Below are positions 233 to 8,836 of a DNA stretch of 8,836 nt, in pieces. A model generated the notes under the pieces. The model made no database searches, was not told the origin of the DNA, and saw nothing but the letters and a program-made list of their open reading frames with translations. Both the position numbers and the translations under genes were made by a program. How positions within the stretch are numbered: position 1 is the stretch's first letter; the number at the start of each line of letters is the position of its first letter. The stretch is from Deltaproteobacteria bacterium (lineage in GTDB: Bacteria > CG2-30-53-67): contig JAADIO010000073.1 in NCBI GenBank assembly GCA_013151235.1, positions 1 through 8,836 on the forward strand, in the 5' to 3' direction.

Positions 233-237
233 CTCCT
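233..237 (-). promoter_or_regulatory. Shine-Dalgarno site of cas6
   Basis: AGGAG overlaps the TAG stop of the DHH-protein gene and lies 5 nt before the ATG at 227. It supports this start for the Cas6 frame that runs to the left edge. Confidence 0.75.
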
Positions 238-1033
238 ATAAAGCTTCAAGCCTCCCGGCAAGGAAACGGAGGATCTCCTCCCCTTCCCGGGAATGGCATT
301 CCTTGAACCAGTATCCCCGCTGTGGAAGGGCACCGCCGTACACTCCGCCGGGGAAACGCCTGTCCAGAAGATGGATCCACTCCCCTTCCCCATAAAAGTC
401 CACCTCCGAAGGACAAAGGATGAGAAGGTTCTGGACTCCAGGGCCACCGAGGACGGACTCCATTCGGTCCGTCACCACGGCCGTCTTCGTGTGCGGAAGC
501 CTGGCCAAGGTCAGCGCCCCGCCGGCAAGGGTCGAGGCCTCGGAGACGGCACGTTCCCCAGCCTGTTCCTCTTCCTCCGTGATCCCCTGAGCCTTCCGGT
601 CGGCGGCGCGAACCTGTATGATCTCTTCCTTCGTGGCCCCGATTTCGATCATGGCAGGGATATATCCCCGGTCGTTTTCGGCAACAAGATCGAATTCTCT
701 CGTCCACCGTTCCGGGGGAAGACCGAGTAGGGAGAAAACCTGATGGAGCGACGTCGGACGGTCGGCCCCGGCCTTCTTCCCATGGTGGTCGATCTCAACG
801 ATTTGATCCGGGTCGAGACCGAGATCATTCGGAAGCTCCACCAGCACGGGGGTCCTCCCCTTCTGCAGGGTGCCGGTGATTTCCTCCCTGTAGGCGGAAG
901 CGGAGACCTCCGCTCCCCAGGCAAGCCCCTTGTCAAAGAAAGGGACCCCCTCCCGGCAGAGCAGTTCCGCTATCATCTCCATCTCGAGGTCATGTCCACC
1001 GAGAAAAAAAGTATAAGAAGATTCAACCATCAT
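236..1033 (-). CDS. DHH-motif protein, putative diverged DHH-family phosphoesterase (candidate CRISPR signal-degrading enzyme)
   Basis: A 265-residue cytosolic protein (no signal peptide or TM segment) lies 11 nt after the TIGR03986-like gene. Seen: an N-terminal strand-loop FFLGGHDLEMEMIAELL (9-25) with acidic residues where DHH enzymes bind metal; a strand VLVELPND; the signature VEIDHHG (79-85); then FDLVAENDRGYIPAM (114-128), placed like the post-DHH Asp segment of this superfamily; and near the C-terminus FPGGVYGGALPQRGYWF (227-243), a glycine-rich loop reminiscent of the substrate loop of DHHA1 domains. At 265 residues it is somewhat shorter than the usual 300-plus of DHH-DHHA1 nanoRNases. 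Known: an NrN phosphodiesterase of the DHH/DHHA1 type degrades SAM-AMP in CorA-linked type III-B systems. Inferred: a similar off-switch here. I do not recognise it as Csx19. Two ATGs are adjacent (1033 and 1030); AAGGA at 1037-1041 is better spaced for 1030. The stop overlaps the Cas6 Shine-Dalgarno site. Confidence 0.72.
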   Translation of the reverse strand: MMVESSYTFFLGGHDLEMEMIAELLCREGVPFFDKGLAWGAEVSASAYREEITGTLQKGRTPVLVELPNDLGLDPDQIVEIDHHGKKAGADRPTSLHQVFSLLGLPPERWTREFDLVAENDRGYIPAMIEIGATKEEIIQVRAADRKAQGITEEEEQAGERAVSEASTLAGGALTLARLPHTKTAVVTDRMESVLGGPGVQNLLILCPSEVDFYGEGEWIHLLDRRFPGGVYGGALPQRGYWFKECHSREGEEILRFLAGRLEAL

Positions 1034-1044
1034 CCATCCTTATT

Positions 1045-3522
1045 TCAATACTTTTTCAAAGTTGGAAGATTCGTGCTTGCCCTATTTAATGGCCTGAGAA
1101 AATCATGTCTCCTCTTGTCGTTTTCCACAAACCACTTGAAGGTCTCATCCTCCGGACCCTGCCCCTGGACGAGGGGGGTATGGACAGGCTCGGTTACCTT
1201 TGCAGGATCGCCCAGGAGTTCCAGGGCGGGTCGGATGTCTTCATTCATCTTATCCCGGAATCCCTTGCGGAAAGCATCATAGGTAATGGCACCTGCAACT
1301 TCCGCCTCTGCAACTTCTGCCTCTGCCTCTCTGCCATATCGCCCCGGCCAGTCTTCCGGAGCATCCTCCTTCCGCCAGACCTTTGCATAACGTGGCGAGG
1401 AGAAGATCTCATCCGTCGTATACCGATCTTCACGGTTTACCAGAAAGAGTCCTATCGGATCGATCCGGACCTTCCCGAGGCCGATCGGTTTCCCCGTTCC
1501 GATCTTGTGGCGGAATGCCTCCGTCGGCCGGAGTGCGTAGCAGAGAAGGCCCAGTTCCCTTTTGCTCAGGTTGTCGAAATCGACATGAAAGTAAAAGACC
1601 GCTCCAGCACGGACGGGAGTGACACTTACTTTCTGCTTGCAACGGTCTTTCTCCTCGCAGGGGGTCGGTGGCTGTGGATCCGTCTTCCAGCACTCCTTCT
1701 CTAACTGGTCTGAGCTGTGATGGAGATAGAACTTCCTTCCCTGGGGATGATGACTCCCCGGTTGCAGATCCTTCTTGGCGATGTAGGCCCCCTGCCCGTC
1801 GGACTTCTTGAAGTAGAGGGCCGGGGAGGGGGGCTTGGGGGAGTCGAGGATCTTCAGGACCACGGGATCGAGATAGGGGCTGGCCTCACGACCGATGGGG
1901 GTCTGTCCGTCCTGATCGGTTATTCCCTCGAAGAGGGCGTCGGCAAAGCGAACCCGCCCCGCAAGGGCGCGTGCGGTATCCCGCTCTTTCTCCTTCCCCT
2001 CCTCAACAAAACCGAAGAGCTGTTCGGCGAGGGTGATCTGCTTCCTTTCTCCATTGAAGGGAAGAAGTTCTTTATCGACGGCCCGAAAGAAATCCCGGCC
2101 TCGTGCGCCTTCCATCCTGTTATTTACGATCCATTCGACCCGCCCCCGCCAGATGGAAGAAAGGGAGATCTCTTCAATGGTATTCCAGCGGGGATGCGGC
2201 TTGAAGAAAACGAGGTCTCCCTCCTTGAGACGGAACTTCTTCCCGTCATTGGCTGGATCCATATTCCGTTTAGTATCCTTCGGCTCATAGGGGAGCTTCC
2301 CGTTCTCATCGGCGTCGGTCCTTGCGTCGGCCAGTTCATGGAAGCGATTCACGACATCATCGGGAATCAAGAAGGCCTCCCAAGCTTCCGGTTTCTCCGG
2401 ACAAGGGATAAAGATTTCGTGTTTCTTTGTATTCGGGATGGCCCGGTCGCCCCAGCAGCCGAGGACGCGGATGATCCCGCGGGTGTAGACGCTCCGTTCG
2501 TGATCCGGAATCTCGTCCCAGGGACGGGGAACTGCATCTTCACGCGCCTTCTGTGAAACAAGAAACGAGTTTCTTGTTACATGCAACTGTGCATCGCCAC
2601 ACAATTCATGACTCCCGGTCCAGCTCCGCCTCTGAAGCTTCATTCCGTAATACTTCGGACTATCGGCACGGAAGGTCCGAAAAGTGAAACGTCCCGAATT
2701 TCGAATACTCAATCTATCTCCGATATAGACCTTGAGGTTCGGTTCGGGGAACATATTCTGATATTCTGCGGGAAGGGGGAACCTATCGTTATTATTCTTT
2801 TGCAAGGTAGGAAGGGTAAGAGGAACAAGAAAATATTTATCCTGACCACCTTTTTCTTTCTCAACATGGATCATCCCGATGGCGGAGAGGCTCTTTGTCA
2901 TTTCCTTTCGGTAAGAATAAGGATATTCGGATCTTTCCAACACCCGCAGTGCCGAATTGCTCGCCGCCTCGGCGATACTTGAAATCAACCCTTTAAGGGT
3001 CGTGGCCGGGACGGCGGGCTTCCCTCCTCTTTCGTAGGGGGCGACGCAGGCGGGGCATTCTTGCTTACCCTTCCTCACGCGCTTTGCCCCGACAAAGATC
3101 GGGCTCTCAGACTTTAACCGGCAGACGATCCGGCCGGAATAGCTACCTTCCACATATCGGTCGTGCCTCACATGTCCGTTTTCCTGACTATCGAACTTCT
3201 CAACGCTCAGATCGGCCGGCCTGTTGTCTTTCAGGACCGGAACGAAATGGTAGGGATTATGAAACTGCGGGGCATCGTCCATCCGCCCCCGGCCTTCTCC
3301 CCGCCCCTGGGGGTGCGCCCTCTGACGTAACGGACCCGGCCCGGCTCCATAGTGTCTCGTCTGGAGACCTTGCTTCCTTTTTTTCTTTTTTTTCTTTTGC
3401 TTACCCGGTGACGATCCGCTATCTTTTTTCGACCCTCCCTGGGCCTGTACCGATTTTTCTTCCCTGGGTGCAAGGCCCCGTTTCCTGCGCATCTCTTCCT
3501 GCCATTCCCTCATATCAACCAT
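1045..3522 (-). CDS. Large RAMP subunit, TIGR03986-like (Cas7 with large insertion)
   Basis: The product is 825 residues from the ATG chosen by its Shine-Dalgarno site, overlapping the Cas7-2x end by 8 nt. Residues 1-85 are a low-complexity, strongly basic tail with a lysine run (KQKKKKKKRKQ, about 41-51) and Gly/Arg-rich segments. The family's hallmark FHNPYHFVP follows at 87-95. Next are the RAMP strand and loop SESPIFVGAKR (138-148), CPAC (156-159) and the helix start VPATTLKGLISS (171-182). A long middle region contains SSIWRGRVEW and AEQLFGFVEEG. The glycine loop HKIGTGKPIGLGKV (672-685) then closes the fold. This gives one Cas7 fold split by about 450 residues, as in the III-D 'Cas7-insertion' subunit. 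The Csm3 cleavage Asp is not seen before PATTLKG, so this module is probably not catalytic. Expected role: crRNA/target binding in the effector complex. The C-terminus carries a small EAEVA repeat. Confidence 0.85.
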   Translation of the reverse strand: MVDMREWQEEMRRKRGLAPREEKSVQAQGGSKKDSGSSPGKQKKKKKKRKQGLQTRHYGAGPGPLRQRAHPQGRGEGRGRMDDAPQFHNPYHFVPVLKDNRPADLSVEKFDSQENGHVRHDRYVEGSYSGRIVCRLKSESPIFVGAKRVRKGKQECPACVAPYERGGKPAVPATTLKGLISSIAEAASNSALRVLERSEYPYSYRKEMTKSLSAIGMIHVEKEKGGQDKYFLVPLTLPTLQKNNNDRFPLPAEYQNMFPEPNLKVYIGDRLSIRNSGRFTFRTFRADSPKYYGMKLQRRSWTGSHELCGDAQLHVTRNSFLVSQKAREDAVPRPWDEIPDHERSVYTRGIIRVLGCWGDRAIPNTKKHEIFIPCPEKPEAWEAFLIPDDVVNRFHELADARTDADENGKLPYEPKDTKRNMDPANDGKKFRLKEGDLVFFKPHPRWNTIEEISLSSIWRGRVEWIVNNRMEGARGRDFFRAVDKELLPFNGERKQITLAEQLFGFVEEGKEKERDTARALAGRVRFADALFEGITDQDGQTPIGREASPYLDPVVLKILDSPKPPSPALYFKKSDGQGAYIAKKDLQPGSHHPQGRKFYLHHSSDQLEKECWKTDPQPPTPCEEKDRCKQKVSVTPVRAGAVFYFHVDFDNLSKRELGLLCYALRPTEAFRHKIGTGKPIGLGKVRIDPIGLFLVNREDRYTTDEIFSSPRYAKVWRKEDAPEDWPGRYGREAEAEVAEAEVAGAITYDAFRKGFRDKMNEDIRPALELLGDPAKVTEPVHTPLVQGQGPEDETFKWFVENDKRRHDFLRPLNRASTNLPTLKKY
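1294..1329. repeat. 15-bp tandem repeat inside the TIGR03986-like gene
   Basis: Two 15-bp units (1294-1308 and 1309-1323) differ at one base and are followed by a 6-bp partial unit. They encode EAEVAEAEVA near residues 732-742. The repeat length is a multiple of three, so copy-number change would keep the frame. Confidence 0.75.
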
Positions 3523-4999
3523 GGACCGCCTCCTTTTGCAACTCCGCAATCTTTTGCCGGAATTGTTCTACAACCTCACTAACCTGAGGATTCTCCGCTT
3601 TCCACCAGTCCCCTGTTATCTCCGCCCGGCTGGCCCCGTACCCCTTGGTCGCGCCGAAACCGAAGGTGATGTCTCCCTCAATGAGGTCCCGGAGTGTCAG
3701 GGCAAGGAGGCCCCGCATCCAGGGCTCGGTCCGGGAACAATCGACTGTGATTTTCCCGGTCAGGCGCGGTTCCAGGACCGACAGGGCGTTGAACTTGGCG
3801 CCGTGGGCTCCGCCGCCGGTAAATCGGTCGATGGCAAGGAAATCCTGGAAGAAGCCGCTCGCTTCCTCTTCTGCCTGGACGAAATCGGTCACCTCCAGCG
3901 GAGAGCGCCAGCCGGCGGCTCCGAACAACCTGCAGGCGGGACAAAGCCGGTCCACTTCCTCGGGATAATTGAGCGACCGGCAGCAGGGATCGCTGTCGGA
4001 ATGACAGGCGGCCTTATCCCCTCCGAGGGTCCGGAGGATCCGCTCGGCCTGGCTCCGGAAGGCCCCGCGGAATGAGCGTGAGGGGAGATAGGCCCGGCTG
4101 TTCCGGTCGAGGATCGGCGCGTGATCGGGATGTGTTTCATCGCTTTCCTGCTCCTTGTCCTTCTTTTCCGGGCATCTGCTCGGGTCATTCACCAGGAAGG
4201 GGGAATCGAATGTGAGTGTTACATCAAGGACGATCTTTTCGATCGAAGGCTTGGCCGGAGAGCCGGCCTTTGGCTTCAATTCGTCGATCTCATCTTCCCC
4301 AAGTTCGGCGAAGGGAAAATCTGCCTGATTCTCTTTCTTGATCCATTCCCGGACGGCCTCGCCGGTCGCACGACGGACCTTGCCCAACTTCCATGAGAGC
4401 CTCCCCCACCCGTCTCCCGTGGAGGCGCCGAGGGTGACGGGGTCGTCCGGATCGTTGAATCCCTCCAGGGCATGGAGCAGGATCCCCACCTCCTCCTCGT
4501 CAAGGCCGCTGCCGGTGATCGTAACGGTAAAGGGGACGCCGGGGGGGACAAACTCATAATGTCTCAGCTTCTTCGCGCTCGCCGTCCGGGTCACCCGGTC
4601 GATGGCGACGGAGGCGGCCGCACCGGTATGCCGCACCGCATCCCAGTAGGGAGGTGGATTCGTCAGCTTGACATCCTTGATATAGGCATAATGGAATTCG
4701 GCCTTTCCCCCTACGGCATCTTTCTTCTTCGTGTCTTCGCTTCCAAGGAGTTCATCAAGCTTACCGTTCGCCCAACGCCGCTTCAACCAGGCCCGGAGGT
4801 CTCCCTTGAGGGTCGAGCCCGGGATACAGGCACGATCCTCGTAGTCGGTAATCACCGACGAGATGTCGATTTTCTCCTTTTTGCCGTTTTCGTTCTCTTT
4901 CGTCAGTGCATCCCGTTCCGTGGTGTCGCCGTCCCCGATATGGAGGGGAGAGTCCGTCGTCAGTGTTCCCGTGATCTTCCATCGTACCGGAAAGCTCAT
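3515..4999 (-). CDS. cas7: Double Cas7 backbone subunit (Cas7-2x type, two Csm3-like RAMP domains)
   Basis: This 494-residue protein contains two Cas7/Csm3-type RAMP modules in tandem. Module 1 (about 1-205): SPLHIGDGDT (17-26), CIPGSTLKGDLRAWL (58-72), VAIDRVTRTASAKKL (131-145) and the glycine-rich loop LGASTGDGWGRLSW (190-203). Module 2 (about 255-462): SPFLVNDPS (266-274), LPSRSFRGAFRSQAERILR (305-323), a CPACRLFG segment (353-360), FLAIDRFTGGGAHGAKF (387-403) and FGFGATKGYGASRAEI (446-461). The spacing D-x5-D upstream of the LP/IPG motif in Csm3, whose first Asp cuts target RNA, is matched by Asp292...Asp298 in module 2. In module 1 it is nearly matched by Asp45...Asp52. Two active target-cleavage sites are therefore plausible. 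Known: III-Dv carries a Cas7-2x subunit forming part of the crRNA-binding backbone. The modules are joined by a charged linker (about 208-255). The gene overlaps the fusion gene by 4 nt and the next gene by 8 nt. Confidence 0.9.
   Translation of the reverse strand: MSFPVRWKITGTLTTDSPLHIGDGDTTERDALTKENENGKKEKIDISSVITDYEDRACIPGSTLKGDLRAWLKRRWANGKLDELLGSEDTKKKDAVGGKAEFHYAYIKDVKLTNPPPYWDAVRHTGAAASVAIDRVTRTASAKKLRHYEFVPPGVPFTVTITGSGLDEEEVGILLHALEGFNDPDDPVTLGASTGDGWGRLSWKLGKVRRATGEAVREWIKKENQADFPFAELGEDEIDELKPKAGSPAKPSIEKIVLDVTLTFDSPFLVNDPSRCPEKKDKEQESDETHPDHAPILDRNSRAYLPSRSFRGAFRSQAERILRTLGGDKAACHSDSDPCCRSLNYPEEVDRLCPACRLFGAAGWRSPLEVTDFVQAEEEASGFFQDFLAIDRFTGGGAHGAKFNALSVLEPRLTGKITVDCSRTEPWMRGLLALTLRDLIEGDITFGFGATKGYGASRAEITGDWWKAENPQVSEVVEQFRQKIAELQKEAVHG
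3529..3534 (-). promoter_or_regulatory. Shine-Dalgarno site deciding the start of the TIGR03986-like gene
   Basis: AGGAGG lies 6 nt before the ATG at 3522. This supports the protein start MVDMREW and argues against a TTG start at 3549, which would lie upstream of this site and further inside the Cas7-2x gene. Confidence 0.75.
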
Positions 5000-6833
5000 G
5001 ATGCCCCTCCTTTCTTCGCAAGGTCGATCAGTTTCCCGTCATGGACCGGCAGGTTGACGGCGATCTCGCCGTATCCGTTCTCCGGTATGTAGGGGCAGTT
5101 CGTCCAGTGGTCCCCTTTTTGGCCGTTCCGGGCGTACTTTTTTATCGCCCACGCCGGGAGGGGAAGCCCCTCTTTGAGCCATTTCTCGATCATCCGCTTC
5201 CCGTCCGCTTCCTTGCCGGTCTTCGCCTTGAGGACGAAGACGCTCCCCGCCTCGGTCAGGAGGTAGGGGTTGTAGGGTTTGCCGTCCTGAAAGCGTTTCC
5301 AGAGGTAGAATCCCCCGGCAAGGCTCTGGCGGGCATAGAAATGGGAGAGTTGCAGAGTCCTGTCGGAAAGCTCTTCCCAGATCTCTTCGTAGGCCTTCCT
5401 CAACTCGGCCTCGCCGCTTGTCTCGTCCAACTTCTCCGGATCGAAAAGAATCGCCGGTGTCTGGAGGGTGACGATCCAGAGTCCATTCTCGGCCTCGGCC
5501 TTCGAAGGGAAGTACGACGTGATCGACTCTTGCTTCTTCGGGACCTCCACATCAACGGCCACCTTGGTCTTCCCCATTCCCCGCAGACCGACGGCAAAGA
5601 GCCCGGCAAGCTGTTCGGCCACTTTGGATCGATCCGAATCACCGACCCGGGAGAGATCCACACCTCCGATCCAGCAGCAACCGTCGGGGCGAACCATCTC
5701 GTAGGCGAAGAGCTGTTCATCGGCCGCCTTGCGACGTTTTTTTTCGATGGCGGTCCGCACGCGTAATTCCGTACCAGGCGTCATCCATCCGAAATATTCA
5801 TCCACATCCCCCCGCTCCTTCCAGTCCACATCAAATTTCGGGGCCACGGGAGGACCCTCGGGACAGGCTGCCTCCTCCTTCCGGGCCATATCAGCTAAAT
5901 GGATTTTCTCATTCTCTTTATACTTCACCAGCGAAAGGGGCGGACGGACGGGACGCTTTGCACTCCCCTCCGGGGCGGGAAAGGCGTGGAGAAAACGGAT
6001 CTTCGTGAAATTCCTGCAAAGCTCCGGTCGTGTAGCGTCGAAATCGTTCGTGATGAAACAACTATCCTTCCCCAGAAGATCCGCCCACGTCCGGGCCAGC
6101 GCCCCGGCAAGGGCCGCGCCGGGGATCTCGGTCTTCGATTCGAAGAGATTGTTCCCCACCTTACGGTCGGCAAGACAGAACGGGGACTTGGGCCGGATTA
6201 TAAGTGGGAAAGAGAAATCGGATGGTGGAGTGGTCTTTTGATCCTCGATCTTTCTTGTTGTGAGTTCTATTTTGACACCATCCAGTCTCCCGAAACCGAC
6301 GGTCCGTTCCGCACCAAGGCTCGGGATCCAGCGCAGGCCGGTCTCGCACTGCCCCTTGACTTTTTCAGCATTTTCAGTCGAGGGCGCCATGAAACGGACC
6401 GTACCGGAAAAGGAAACCCTTTCGCCCGGTGCAAAGGGGGCTTCGACAACCTGGTAGGCCCCCTTGTCCACAGCGCCCCGGCATTCGTCGATCCGGATCC
6501 GGAAAGCGATTCCTTCCCTGTCCGCCCCATCGTGTACGAAGTCGTCGAAATGGAGTCGCCCCTGGACAGGCTCCACACCTCCCGGCCCGCTCCCGGATTT
6601 TTTTCCAAGGAGGCTTTTGATTACGGTGTCAGAGATGAAACCGGAATCGGCAAGACACAACTCGTCCCAGGCGCTTCCCGAAGACGCCCCTTCACGAGGG
6701 TGCCGGGCAGATAGTAACGGTCCTGCCGGTCCTTCGCCATGGGGGAATCGATACCGTACGGCCCTGCCGCCGTGGAATGGGTCAGCACCGGGCCTATCAG
6801 TTGCAGCGTGATCTTCATCTCAGCGTCATACAT
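4996..6833 (-). CDS. csx10: Cas7-Cas5 (Csx10-like) fusion RAMP subunit, interrupted by a frameshift
   Basis: Two frames together encode one protein of about 612 residues: frame 1 from 6833 to about 6675, frame 2 from about 6669 to the stop at 4996. The N-terminal module is Cas7/Csm3-like. KITLQLIGPVLT is the first RAMP strand; GIDSPMAKD (27-35) matches the Csm3 segment with the RNA-cleaving Asp, here Asp29; YLPGTLVKGRLR (41-52) is the conserved RAMP helix start. Its glycine-rich loop is SLGAERTVGFGRL (about 173-185). A second RAMP region with the features of Csx10/Cas5 follows: strand SFPLIIRPKSPF, then IPGAALAGALA (about 237-247), a glycine loop GLRGMGK (about 416-422), and a C-terminal part with SLAGGFYLW, AGSVFVL and GYGEIAV. 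Known: Csx10 is the Cas5-type subunit of III-D, which caps the crRNA 5' handle, and III-Dv has a Cas7-5-11 fusion. A separate Cas11 domain cannot be recognised; one charged helical stretch (about 472-502) is the only candidate. The stop overlaps the next start by ATGA. Confidence 0.82.
5006..5011 (-). promoter_or_regulatory. Shine-Dalgarno site of the Cas7-2x gene
   Basis: AGGAGG within AAAGGAGGGG, 6 nt before the ATG at 4999 and inside the end of the upstream gene. Together with the ATGA stop/start overlap it points to coupled translation of the two subunits. Confidence 0.75.
6670..6674 (-). other. Frameshift site inside the Cas7-Cas5 fusion gene
   Basis: On the coding strand, frame 1 reads LVKGRLREA up to the GAA codon ending at 6675, and the conserved continuation WDELCLADSGF starts at the TGG at 6669. 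The five bases between (GCGCC) leave the reading frame one base short or two bases long. Frame 1 runs on without homology to a stop at 6621. No slippery heptamer is present here. It is a sequencing error or a real mutation; the sequence alone cannot tell which. Confidence 0.85.
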
Positions 6834-6841
6834 CCCCATAT

Positions 6842-6847: not shown

Positions 6848-8285
6848 ATTCAACAAGGTAGTCCCACAACAGTGCAAGGTGAAGCCAGCGAAGGACCTCG
6901 CCGCCGAAGGGGTCCTTCAAGTCTTCCAGCGCTTTTTTTGTCTCAAGGTCAAGACTCTTGATGGTCTTCTCGATCACCTTTATCGTTCCGGGATCTCCGC
7001 GGGTCAGCCCCTTCACGATGGCATAAAGCTTCCTGCGGGGGAAATTCTCCCGGAGTACAGCAACCTTATCCAGAGCGCTCCCCATCTTCCCTCCCTCCAG
7101 GATCATATCGTCCGGCGAACAGCCGTTGGGGCAAATCTCACGCCGGTAGCCCATCAGGTCCCGTCCGATATGGTCGAAGGACTCGAGGACCTCATAGGCA
7201 AAGAGGTTTTCCTCACGGCTCTTCTCCTTGGCCAGTTCGGCCAGATCCTTTGCGAGCTTCGTGATCCGGTGGATCGGAGCGTTGTGGTGACAAAAGACGA
7301 TGCCGCCGCCGTGCGTGAGCCGGTTCCCATGAAATTCCCAGCTCTCCGATTCTTCATAGAAGCGTTTCAAAACCCGCCACCCAAGCCAGGCCGGGACAAT
7401 CCAGATGATCTCGTCCCCGCCCCAGAGCAGGGTCTCCAGTCGGTAGTTATCTTTTGCCGAGATCCACTCCTTGCGGTCCTTCATCTCCGACAGCAGGGTC
7501 TTGAGAAATCCCCGACGGTAGTTCTTGATCGTGGTATCAAAATCTTCCTGGAGTTTTCTTGTGTTACAGACATCGCTCTGGAGACCACCGAAGCCGTTCC
7601 CATCGAGGTAGATGACAGCCATCTTGTGATGAAGGTTCCCCCGGGAACGATCCGAGGTAAGCTCGTCGAAATCATTGGCAAAGTTCAGGGGAACCAACTC
7701 CGAAGCTTTCTTTTGATCTACCTTTTTGAGCTTGACCAGTTCTTTCCTGTAAAATTCCTGCTTCTCTTCACGGCCGTATTTCCAGCGTTGCCAGACCGAC
7801 TCGCTGATTTTCTTACCTTTAGGCCCAGCCTTCACGGCAGGCCGTACGCCGTCCAGTTCGCAGGGGACAACATTTTTGACTCGACTGGTCTTTGGAACAG
7901 CCACGGTCGGGGACCGCATCTGCTGGAAACGGTTCTTCGCAAGCAGCGTCTCCCGGACCGTGATAAAGTCATCTTCGGCCCTGAGGAAATCAACGACAAA
8001 GGTGGCGTGTTTGAATCGAGGATCCTTCTTCAGACAATCCATCACAGAGTTGCAAATTTGTCTAGCTTTGGAATCATCAGCGTCACCGTCATCCATCTCA
8101 AAGCGAAAAAGTCCGGAAGAGGCGCCCGTGGTGACCGGTTCCAGCCGGGGTACGCGTTTCTGAACATGACCCACAGCGTCGAGCATCAAGAGACTCCCCC
8201 CCCGGGCCGTGCTCAAATCCTGGGTATCGAAGACAAAGTTCAAGAGGTTTACCCCCTCCATGCGGAGATAGTAGGTTGCCGTCAT
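6846..8285 (-). CDS. cas10: Cas10, type III signal-producing subunit; short, HD-less form with GGDE motif
   Basis: This 479-residue protein is short for Cas10, which is usually well above 600. It begins directly in the first Palm region: NFVFDTQDLSTARGGS (16-31) matches the conserved Cas10 start of Palm1, so there is no N-terminal HD nuclease. FVVDFL (96-101) is a likely Palm1 strand. CELDGVRPA (142-150) matches the conserved linker before Palm2. Palm2 has the first metal-site strand VIYLDGNGFG (224-233, Asp228) and the hairpin WGGDEIIW (288-295). The cyclase motif is therefore GGDE, not GGDD. It continues into THGGGIVFCHHNAP (324-337), the usual Palm2 strand-helix, and a helical C-terminal domain. 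Known: Cas10 Palm2 makes cyclic oligoadenylates or, in CorA-linked systems, SAM-AMP when target RNA is bound. Inferred: this one signals only and does not cut DNA. The start is set by a strong Shine-Dalgarno site. The stop overlaps the Shine-Dalgarno site of the next gene. Confidence 0.9.
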   Translation of the reverse strand: MTATYYLRMEGVNLLNFVFDTQDLSTARGGSLLMLDAVGHVQKRVPRLEPVTTGASSGLFRFEMDDGDADDSKARQICNSVMDCLKKDPRFKHATFVVDFLRAEDDFITVRETLLAKNRFQQMRSPTVAVPKTSRVKNVVPCELDGVRPAVKAGPKGKKISESVWQRWKYGREEKQEFYRKELVKLKKVDQKKASELVPLNFANDFDELTSDRSRGNLHHKMAVIYLDGNGFGGLQSDVCNTRKLQEDFDTTIKNYRRGFLKTLLSEMKDRKEWISAKDNYRLETLLWGGDEIIWIVPAWLGWRVLKRFYEESESWEFHGNRLTHGGGIVFCHHNAPIHRITKLAKDLAELAKEKSREENLFAYEVLESFDHIGRDLMGYRREICPNGCSPDDMILEGGKMGSALDKVAVLRENFPRRKLYAIVKGLTRGDPGTIKVIEKTIKSLDLETKKALEDLKDPFGGEVLRWLHLALLWDYLVE

Positions 8286-8303: not shown

Positions 8304-8836
8304 TTACTTCTTCTTTGGCTTCTGTCGCGCAAGCCTGTCAAAATACTTGTACAGACGATTGGAACACTTTATAGTCAGGAGCAACAGAAAGGTCGATCCT
8401 GCCATGGTCAATATGAAGACCAGCCACGAATGTTTCTTCCAATCCATTATCCAGATATTCATCCCCAGGAACCCCGTGGCCACGGCCAGGACCATCCCCA
8501 CCGTAGCAACAACGGTCAGGCGTGTGGTCGCCCTGGTCTCCTGCTCCGCCTCCTGGATCTCGAGGTATTCATGGCTGCTGTTGATCTCCTTCTCTACTTC
8601 CTCGAAGAGTTCATCCACATCCATATGCTTCCGAGCAAGAGTATACATCTCGATCGCCTGCTGCTGGTTGGATAGGAGGGGAAACTGATAGAGATTCGCG
8701 AAAAGGGAAAAGTTCCAACGAAGTTTATCGAAGGTTTCATGCCAGTCCTTCTCCCCCTTTTCCCTCGCATCGGCGGAAATCTTGCTAAGCGCCCCGCTGA
8801 ACCGGAAGAGGACCACCCGGATATAAAGGAGAAGAA
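8304..8836 (-). CDS. corA: CorA-like membrane protein, C-terminal part (5' end beyond the right edge); putative CRISPR type III effector
   Basis: The frame stays open to the right edge. A GTG at 8816 could be read as a start, but the upstream codons continue without a stop and only a CorA C-terminal half is present, so the gene is most likely cut by the window. Counting from that GTG, residues 10-97 are a charged, mostly helical stalk. TM1 is about 99-120 and ends in the GMN signature (GFLGMNIW, 115-122). A short loop (IMDWKKH) follows, then TM2 at about 130-151 and a basic tail ending in PKKK. This is the topology of the CorA Mg2+ channel family in the inner membrane. Known: CorA-like proteins are membrane effectors of some type III CRISPR systems and respond to SAM-AMP. 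Inferred: it has that role here, because it lies 18 nt upstream of cas10 on the same strand. The ligand-binding N-terminal domain is not visible. An ordinary metal transporter is possible but unlikely in this context. Confidence 0.85.
   Translation of the reverse strand, partial: LLLYIRVVLFRFSGALSKISADAREKGEKDWHETFDKLRWNFSLFANLYQFPLLSNQQQAIEMYTLARKHMDVDELFEEVEKEINSSHEYLEIQEAEQETRATTRLTVVATVGMVLAVATGFLGMNIWIMDWKKHSWLVFILTMAGSTFLLLLTIKCSNRLYKYFDRLARQKPKKK

Follow-up and report, generated by a model that had tools for sequence, protein, structure and literature searches.

The best-described enzyme of the kind considered here is NrN of B. fragilis, which cleaves SAM-AMP, not pApA nor cA2-cA6, and is inactivated by mutation of its DHH motif (PMC10600005). 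Immunity in B. fragilis requires NrN plus CorA (PMC10600005; PMC12255297), the nrn gene lies beside corA, and the complex that NrN serves is of type III-B (Cmr). Two pairs of residues in CorA, R152-R153 and D219-D220, matter for function (PMC10600005), and D70 and E151 are the SAM acceptor residues of Cas10. Among type III-D systems, CorA-associated representatives with Csm6-2 and Crn4 have been described (PMC11229360, PMC12830947); they are without NrN and are thought to signal by cOA. A 2025 classification paper by Makarova et al. (PMC12669027) states that III-D loci encode no enzymes that cleave SAM-AMP.

The DNA analyzed here (the window) is a stretch of 8,836 nucleotides at the start of contig C73 (12,602 bp) in a 2.6-Mb deltaproteobacterial assembly. 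It carries, on one strand, genes in the order CorA, Cas10, Csm4/Cas5-like, double Cas7, TIGR03986, NrN, and Cas6 (Table 1). The nrn homologue is the second-last of these, with a gap of 14 bp separating it from the preceding TIGR03986 RAMP gene and just a few bases from the following cas6, and a sequence-only reading of the window had correctly placed it inside the cas operon, between the RAMP genes and cas6; this differs from B. fragilis, where nrn adjoins corA. The N-terminal part of CorA is encoded farther along contig C73, at 8861 to about 10051, outside the window, and a 24-N scaffold gap (L004 8837-8860) lies within corA just beyond the window end. Upstream of corA (L004 10243-11187) is a gene for a predicted secreted or periplasmic protein that, judged by eye, is like a formylglycine-generating-enzyme-type (sulfatase-modifying) domain.

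Table 1. Features of the window; residue numbers refer to the NrN homologue
Feature	Positions	Strand	Basis or remarks
cas6 start, truncated by contig end	3..227	-	PADLOC Cas6 3.6e-20
nrn homologue, DHH-family phosphodiesterase, 265 aa, ATG start	236..1033	-	PADLOC, PDB sequence match, alignment, predicted fold
GGVYGG loop, residues 229-234, C-terminal DHHA1-like domain	332..349	-	Alignment and model
NDRGY segment, residues 120-124	662..676	-	D121 corresponds to D119 of crystallised NrN (alignment)
DHH motif, residues 82-84	782..790	-	D85/H86/H87 of B. fragilis NrN (alignment)
Motif I GGHDLEM, residues 12-18	980..1000	-	PDB NrN alignment; acidic residues D15 and E17
TIGR03986-family RAMP (Cas7/Csm3-like), III-D-like complex subunit	1045..3549	-	NCBIfam TIGR03986 3.6e-85; PADLOC Csm3 III-A/III-D 4.5e-85; PDB 9wxh_D 9e-92
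Protein with two RAMP (Cas7) domains	3515..4999	-	Pfam RAMPs; PADLOC Cas7_IIId 2.4e-50
Csm4/Cas5-like subunit, III-D type	4996..6839	-	PADLOC Csm4 CAS-III-D 1.9e-75 and 7.2e-8 (two pieces); PDB 9wxh_C 1.3e-105
Small Cas10, 479 aa	6846..8285	-	GGDE cyclase motif 7410-7421; DGN palm motif 7596-7604
CRISPR CorA effector, C-terminal part	8304..8834	-	Pfam CorA 7.4e-7; PADLOC CorA 7.1e-32

The Csm4/Cas5-like gene is cut in two by a single-base frame shift near position 6,670, which could be an assembly error or damage, such that the locus itself may be damaged or misassembled. Together with the failure to find cas1 in an assembly that is 99% complete, this raises the question of whether the locus is decaying and its NrN has no active partner system, an explanation that we regard as scarcely credible. 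Every other gene is open, and with a scaffold gap and cut contig ends an assembly error is equally likely; no second cas6 piece was found in the assembly. Type III loci are, moreover, often without cas1 and use arrays elsewhere.

That the 265-residue protein is an NrN homologue is practically certain. A search of PDB sequences matched only the four NrN entries (9lq9, 9lqa, 9lqb, and 9lqc; E 3e-30 to 4e-29), and the best match spans residues 7 to 218, the whole catalytic part. The best PADLOC profiles are C3a116 (cluster 29 associated; 5.7e-72) and DHH_CorA ("CorA associated"; 4.1e-43), and with matches of this strength to PADLOC and to the PDB NrN the open reading frame is no chance reading frame. 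Pfam gave no family at E values up to 1, DHH and DHHA1 included, and NCBIfam gave no match, so that the protein looks like an orphan to anyone using those two collections. As befits NrN, the gene has as operon partners a CRISPR CorA effector gene and one for a Cas10 with a GGDE motif. It had been taken for a diverged, unassigned DHH protein, and instead belongs to a described family crystallised with SAM-AMP; its branch was already catalogued as type III-associated in PADLOC by 2023, although the C3a116 entry carries no function, messenger, or complex type.

The four motifs reported from the sequence, GGHDLEM, DHH, NDRGY, and GGVYGG, are all where they had been placed, each in a single copy, and G233 and G234 of the last are almost invariant in the family alignment. 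What does not hold is the view of GGHDLEM as an oddity replacing the usual motif I, as GGxDxEM is NrN's own motif I: G12, G13, D15, E17, and M18 are invariant across all three clades of the family (see below) wherever the position is present, and only H14 varies. Alignment with the PDB sequences equates the catalytic E21, D85-H86-H87, and D119 of NrN with E17, D82-H83-H84, and D121 of the window protein. The substitutions in the crystallised variants fall precisely on the glutamate of GGHDLEM and on the aspartate of the ND segment; by their entry titles, 9lqa is NrN E21A with SAM-AMP, 9lqc is NrN D119A with SAH-AMP, and a further entry is E21A with SAH-AMP. The residues that the crystallographers mutated, presumably in order to block catalysis, are thus those of the acidic loop and of the Asp segment that follows DHH.

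The AlphaFold model of the window protein (pLDDT 95.8, pTM 0.91) superimposes on SAM-AMP-bound NrN with Z 30 and 1.7 A over 240 of 265 residues, the C-terminal domain included, whereas PAP phosphatase, RecJ, TM1595, DhhP, and NrnA all score Z 14 or less. The comparison with NrnA and CRISPR NrN that the sequence-only reading had proposed thus returns a predicted DHH fold closest to NrN, and, as far as the predicted model and homology indicate, the acidic residues would be gathered rather than scattered. These data bear on whether the protein could be a general nanoRNase or pApA phosphodiesterase lying in a cas operon by chance. The fold family is common to NrnA, TM1595, DhhP, and GdpP, and Mn-dependent DHH chemistry is shared, yet these four give Z 8.6 to 11 as compared to Z 30 for NrN, Pfam finds neither DHH nor DHHA1, motif I reads D-x-E in place of the D-x-D expected of the Pfam NrnA, nanoRNase A, and DHH-DHHA1 groups, and pApA is not cleaved by NrN (PMC10600005). 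With the recurrent CRISPR linkage and the gene fusions described below, we consider this explanation highly improbable. Length had also been noted as unusual, and the protein is indeed shorter than the NrnA-type nanoRNases among the Foldseek targets (312 to 340 residues); for NrN, however, 265 residues is the usual size, stand-alone members being mostly about 245 to 295 residues.

The window protein and B. fragilis NrN are therefore alike in fold, in GGxDLEM, DHH, and ND segment, in size, and in being partnered by CorA and Cas10, and they differ in that they are about 33 to 40% identical, fall in separate clades, and sit with III-D-like and III-B complexes, respectively. To place the family more broadly, an alignment-based scan of 84,980 genomes yielded 112 relatives, of which 80 were kept, and a maximum-likelihood tree was built from 86 NrN domains. 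It has three clades: one linked to III-B (Cmr) systems (41 rows; support 99/95), one linked mainly to III-D-type systems and containing the window (24 rows; 99/84), and one with no recognised cas or corA gene (19 rows; 100/95). Close to where the III-D-linked and CRISPR-free clades originate, the NrNs of loci L030 and L044 branch off. All three clades (84 to 86 rows) retain G12, G13, D15, E17, M18, D82, H83, H84, N120, D121, and R142, with the sole exception of one row with an altered DHH in the CRISPR-free clade. The suggestion of a separate subfamily is half right: the tree does set the III-D-linked NrNs, with support, in a clade of their own distinct from the III-B-linked members, whereas a difference in substrate specificity is hypothetical. 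Scans of a phage collection and of viral contigs found no NrN relative, and hence no sign of a phage-encoded NrN there; eight genomes of the host's own small phylum held no further copy, and 398 more genomes around Rhodobacter capsulatus gave nothing new of the NrN/III-D kind beyond the R. capsulatus genome itself.

The CRISPR-free clade comes mostly from uncultured Alphaproteobacteria and Patescibacteria-type metagenome-assembled genomes (MAGs) and keeps the catalytic residues (loci L029, L031, L033 to L039, L042, L045, L046, L051, L063, L071, and L075). L035 has two NrN copies and L042 has three, and in L042 one stands behind a KH-domain protein in a single open reading frame (L042:8198-10465), and four members share an upstream gene of ~200 codons (e.g., L063:9292-9897). 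Because this clade exists, an NrN-like sequence alone is no proof of a CRISPR messenger.

The operon of the window is type III-D-like, as judged from sequence and predicted structure, because of its PADLOC assignments, the fold similarity of its Cas10, and its matches to PDB 9wxh. Its Cas5 and Cas7 subunits are of III-D type, the Cas7 proteins being assigned by PADLOC to III-A/III-D or Cas7_IIId, and no HD nuclease domain was recognised in its Cas10, as is characteristic of III-D. The Cas10 model scores Z 25.6 against a solved III-D Cas10 and Z 16.7 to 18.6 against 9lq5-9lq8, the III-B complex whose structures were deposited alongside those of NrN. By sequence, the closest solved complex is 9wxh, 9wxi, and 9wxj (Cas10, RAMP, and TIGR03986 subunits), with 9wxh matching Cas10 (3.5e-80), the Csm4-like protein (1.3e-105), and TIGR03986 (9e-92), and with DGN and GGDE in both.

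NrN accompanies a III-D-type complex in 14 loci besides the window, from Myxococcota, Bacteroidota, Acidobacteriota, Hydrogenedentes, Planctomycetota, Nitrosomonas, and Alphaproteobacteria (e.g., Rhodobacter capsulatus). CorA is present in 13 of the 15, as a separate protein in 11 and as an NrN-CorA fusion in L044 and L019; of the other two, the L009 contig ends before corA, and L008 has a chimaeric open reading frame. In L028, a Reyranella MAG, an 816-residue protein (9968-12415) encoded directly behind corA joins NrN (residues 12 to 246; 3e-69) to Cas10 (residues 271 to 807; 3e-99). The junction is in frame and without unknown bases, although, with one MAG as its only source, an assembly error is conceivable; if real, messenger maker and messenger remover may lie within one protein. 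The 15 loci contradict, through linkage and fusions and in one III-D branch, the 2025 statement cited above, and the association may already be plotted in a 2024 survey (PMC11229360). Two more members of the III-D-linked NrN clade lie beside Cas6-RT-Cas1 and RT-Cas1 genes (L010, L025).

Several of these loci have unusual architectures. In L010 (950-4096), from a Chromatiaceae MAG, a Cas6-reverse transcriptase-Cas1 fusion adjoins the NrN gene. In L014 (4116-9986), a 1957-residue fusion of Csm4-like, double Cas7, and TIGR03986 parts lies beside Cas10, CorA, and NrN and resembles a step toward III-E-like single effectors. A III-D-like locus on the Tistrella mobilis plasmid pTM1 (L088:23007-26354) encodes a CorA of 1115 residues whose N terminus has the look of a degenerate NrN, with LIIANDLGG kept and DHH replaced, although the profile match falls short of significance (E 0.15).

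The partner proteins allow a further comparison with the B. fragilis system. The III-D CorA is homologous to the SAM-AMP-type CorA along nearly its whole length (hhalign 6e-50), and a sequence search found no solved CRISPR CorA structure. The window CorA keeps R224, D296, and R298, that is, the R152 and D219 positions plus the next Arg, and these are retained in nearly all III-D CorA proteins; it reads FRY and ADNR, so that the second Arg (R153) and the second Asp (D220) are replaced. The Cas10 proteins of all intact III-D relatives have GGDE and DGN (13/13), where those of the III-B relatives have GGDD and DGD. We considered whether DGN distinguishes the Cas10 proteins coupled to CorA and rejected this, since the Synechocystis III-D Cas10 (8s9t) has DGN too; GGDE remains. 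D70 and E151 are kept in the III-B relatives (26/26 and 25/26), and no counterpart is visible in III-D Cas10, where L008 was excluded from N-terminal counts because its reading frame is apparently a CorA-Cas10 chimaera. We rejected the interpretation that III-D Cas10 has lost D70 and E151: in profile-profile comparison the III-D and III-B proteins align over the second palm domain only, the first being too diverged to align, and the absence is thus unreadable as loss.

These differences bring up a second possibility, in which the enzyme class is the same and the messenger is not. The III-D Cas10, with a different acceptor pocket, would make an AMP-cofactor or other linear AMP conjugate that CorA senses and the III-D-linked NrN clade cleaves. 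A Cas10 strongly unlike the SAM-AMP-type III-B protein and with GGDE/DGN rather than GGDD/DGD, the replacement of CorA R153 and D220, and the clade-specific NrN sites L64, W110, T184, P208, P237, and W242, mostly in the second half of the protein, all point this way, and Makarova et al. (PMC12669027) call the ligand of III-D CorA open. However, the catalytic and most core residues of NrN are identical between the III-B-linked and III-D-linked clades, the B. fragilis enzyme acts selectively on SAM-AMP, and GGDE, listed among likely active cyclase motifs (PMC11229360), implies no new product. We therefore view a different AMP conjugate as the messenger of CorA-coupled III-D systems as rather unlikely.

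We favor the interpretation that the protein is probably a SAM-AMP phosphodiesterase of the NrN type that serves a type III-D system coupled to CorA, where it would reset or tune the CorA signal. Several observations lead to it: the homology to PDB NrN, the invariant catalytic positions, and the DHH_CorA and C3a116 profiles; the CorA gene beside cas10, the homologous CorA cytosolic domain, the 15 loci, and the fusions of NrN to Cas10 and CorA; and the cleavage of SAM-AMP by B. fragilis NrN. Predicted fold, active-site residues, operon position, and fusions (L028; L019, L044) likewise support the earlier proposal of a DHH phosphodiesterase with a CRISPR role, probably acting on the messenger that its own Cas10 makes. 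Counting against the favored interpretation are the Cas10 without a recognisable D70/E151 pair, an absence that is neutral evidence given the unalignable first palm domain, the frame shift in the Csm4-like gene, the CRISPR-free NrN clade, and locus L044, which is III-D by PADLOC and context and has an NrN outside the main III-D clade.

In the proposed scheme, the effector complex would bind foreign RNA, upon which Cas10 would couple AMP to a small molecule, S-adenosylmethionine being the likeliest acceptor, and the product would open or otherwise activate the membrane protein CorA. NrN, with a putative two-metal site of D15, E17, D82, H83, H84, and D121, would hydrolyse the phosphodiester bond of SAM-AMP to give SAM and AMP, and so end or tune the CorA signal. 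We infer the substrate, the direction of cleavage, and the resetting or tuning role from B. fragilis NrN (PMC10600005); there and here, the enzyme may serve either to reset the signal or to keep CorA responsive.

NrN, CorA, and SAM-AMP are already known, and the window NrN is ordinary by family and uncommon by setting. The III-D loci with NrN supply the enzyme reported missing, so that signalling of the SAM-AMP kind is likely to extend beyond III-B, and they offer a concrete route to the alarm molecule that these systems use, testable with one purified enzyme. Their diverged Cas10 would be a natural second solution, or point to a second messenger, for comparison with B. fragilis, and the CRISPR-free NrN clade hints that AMP conjugates may exist elsewhere.
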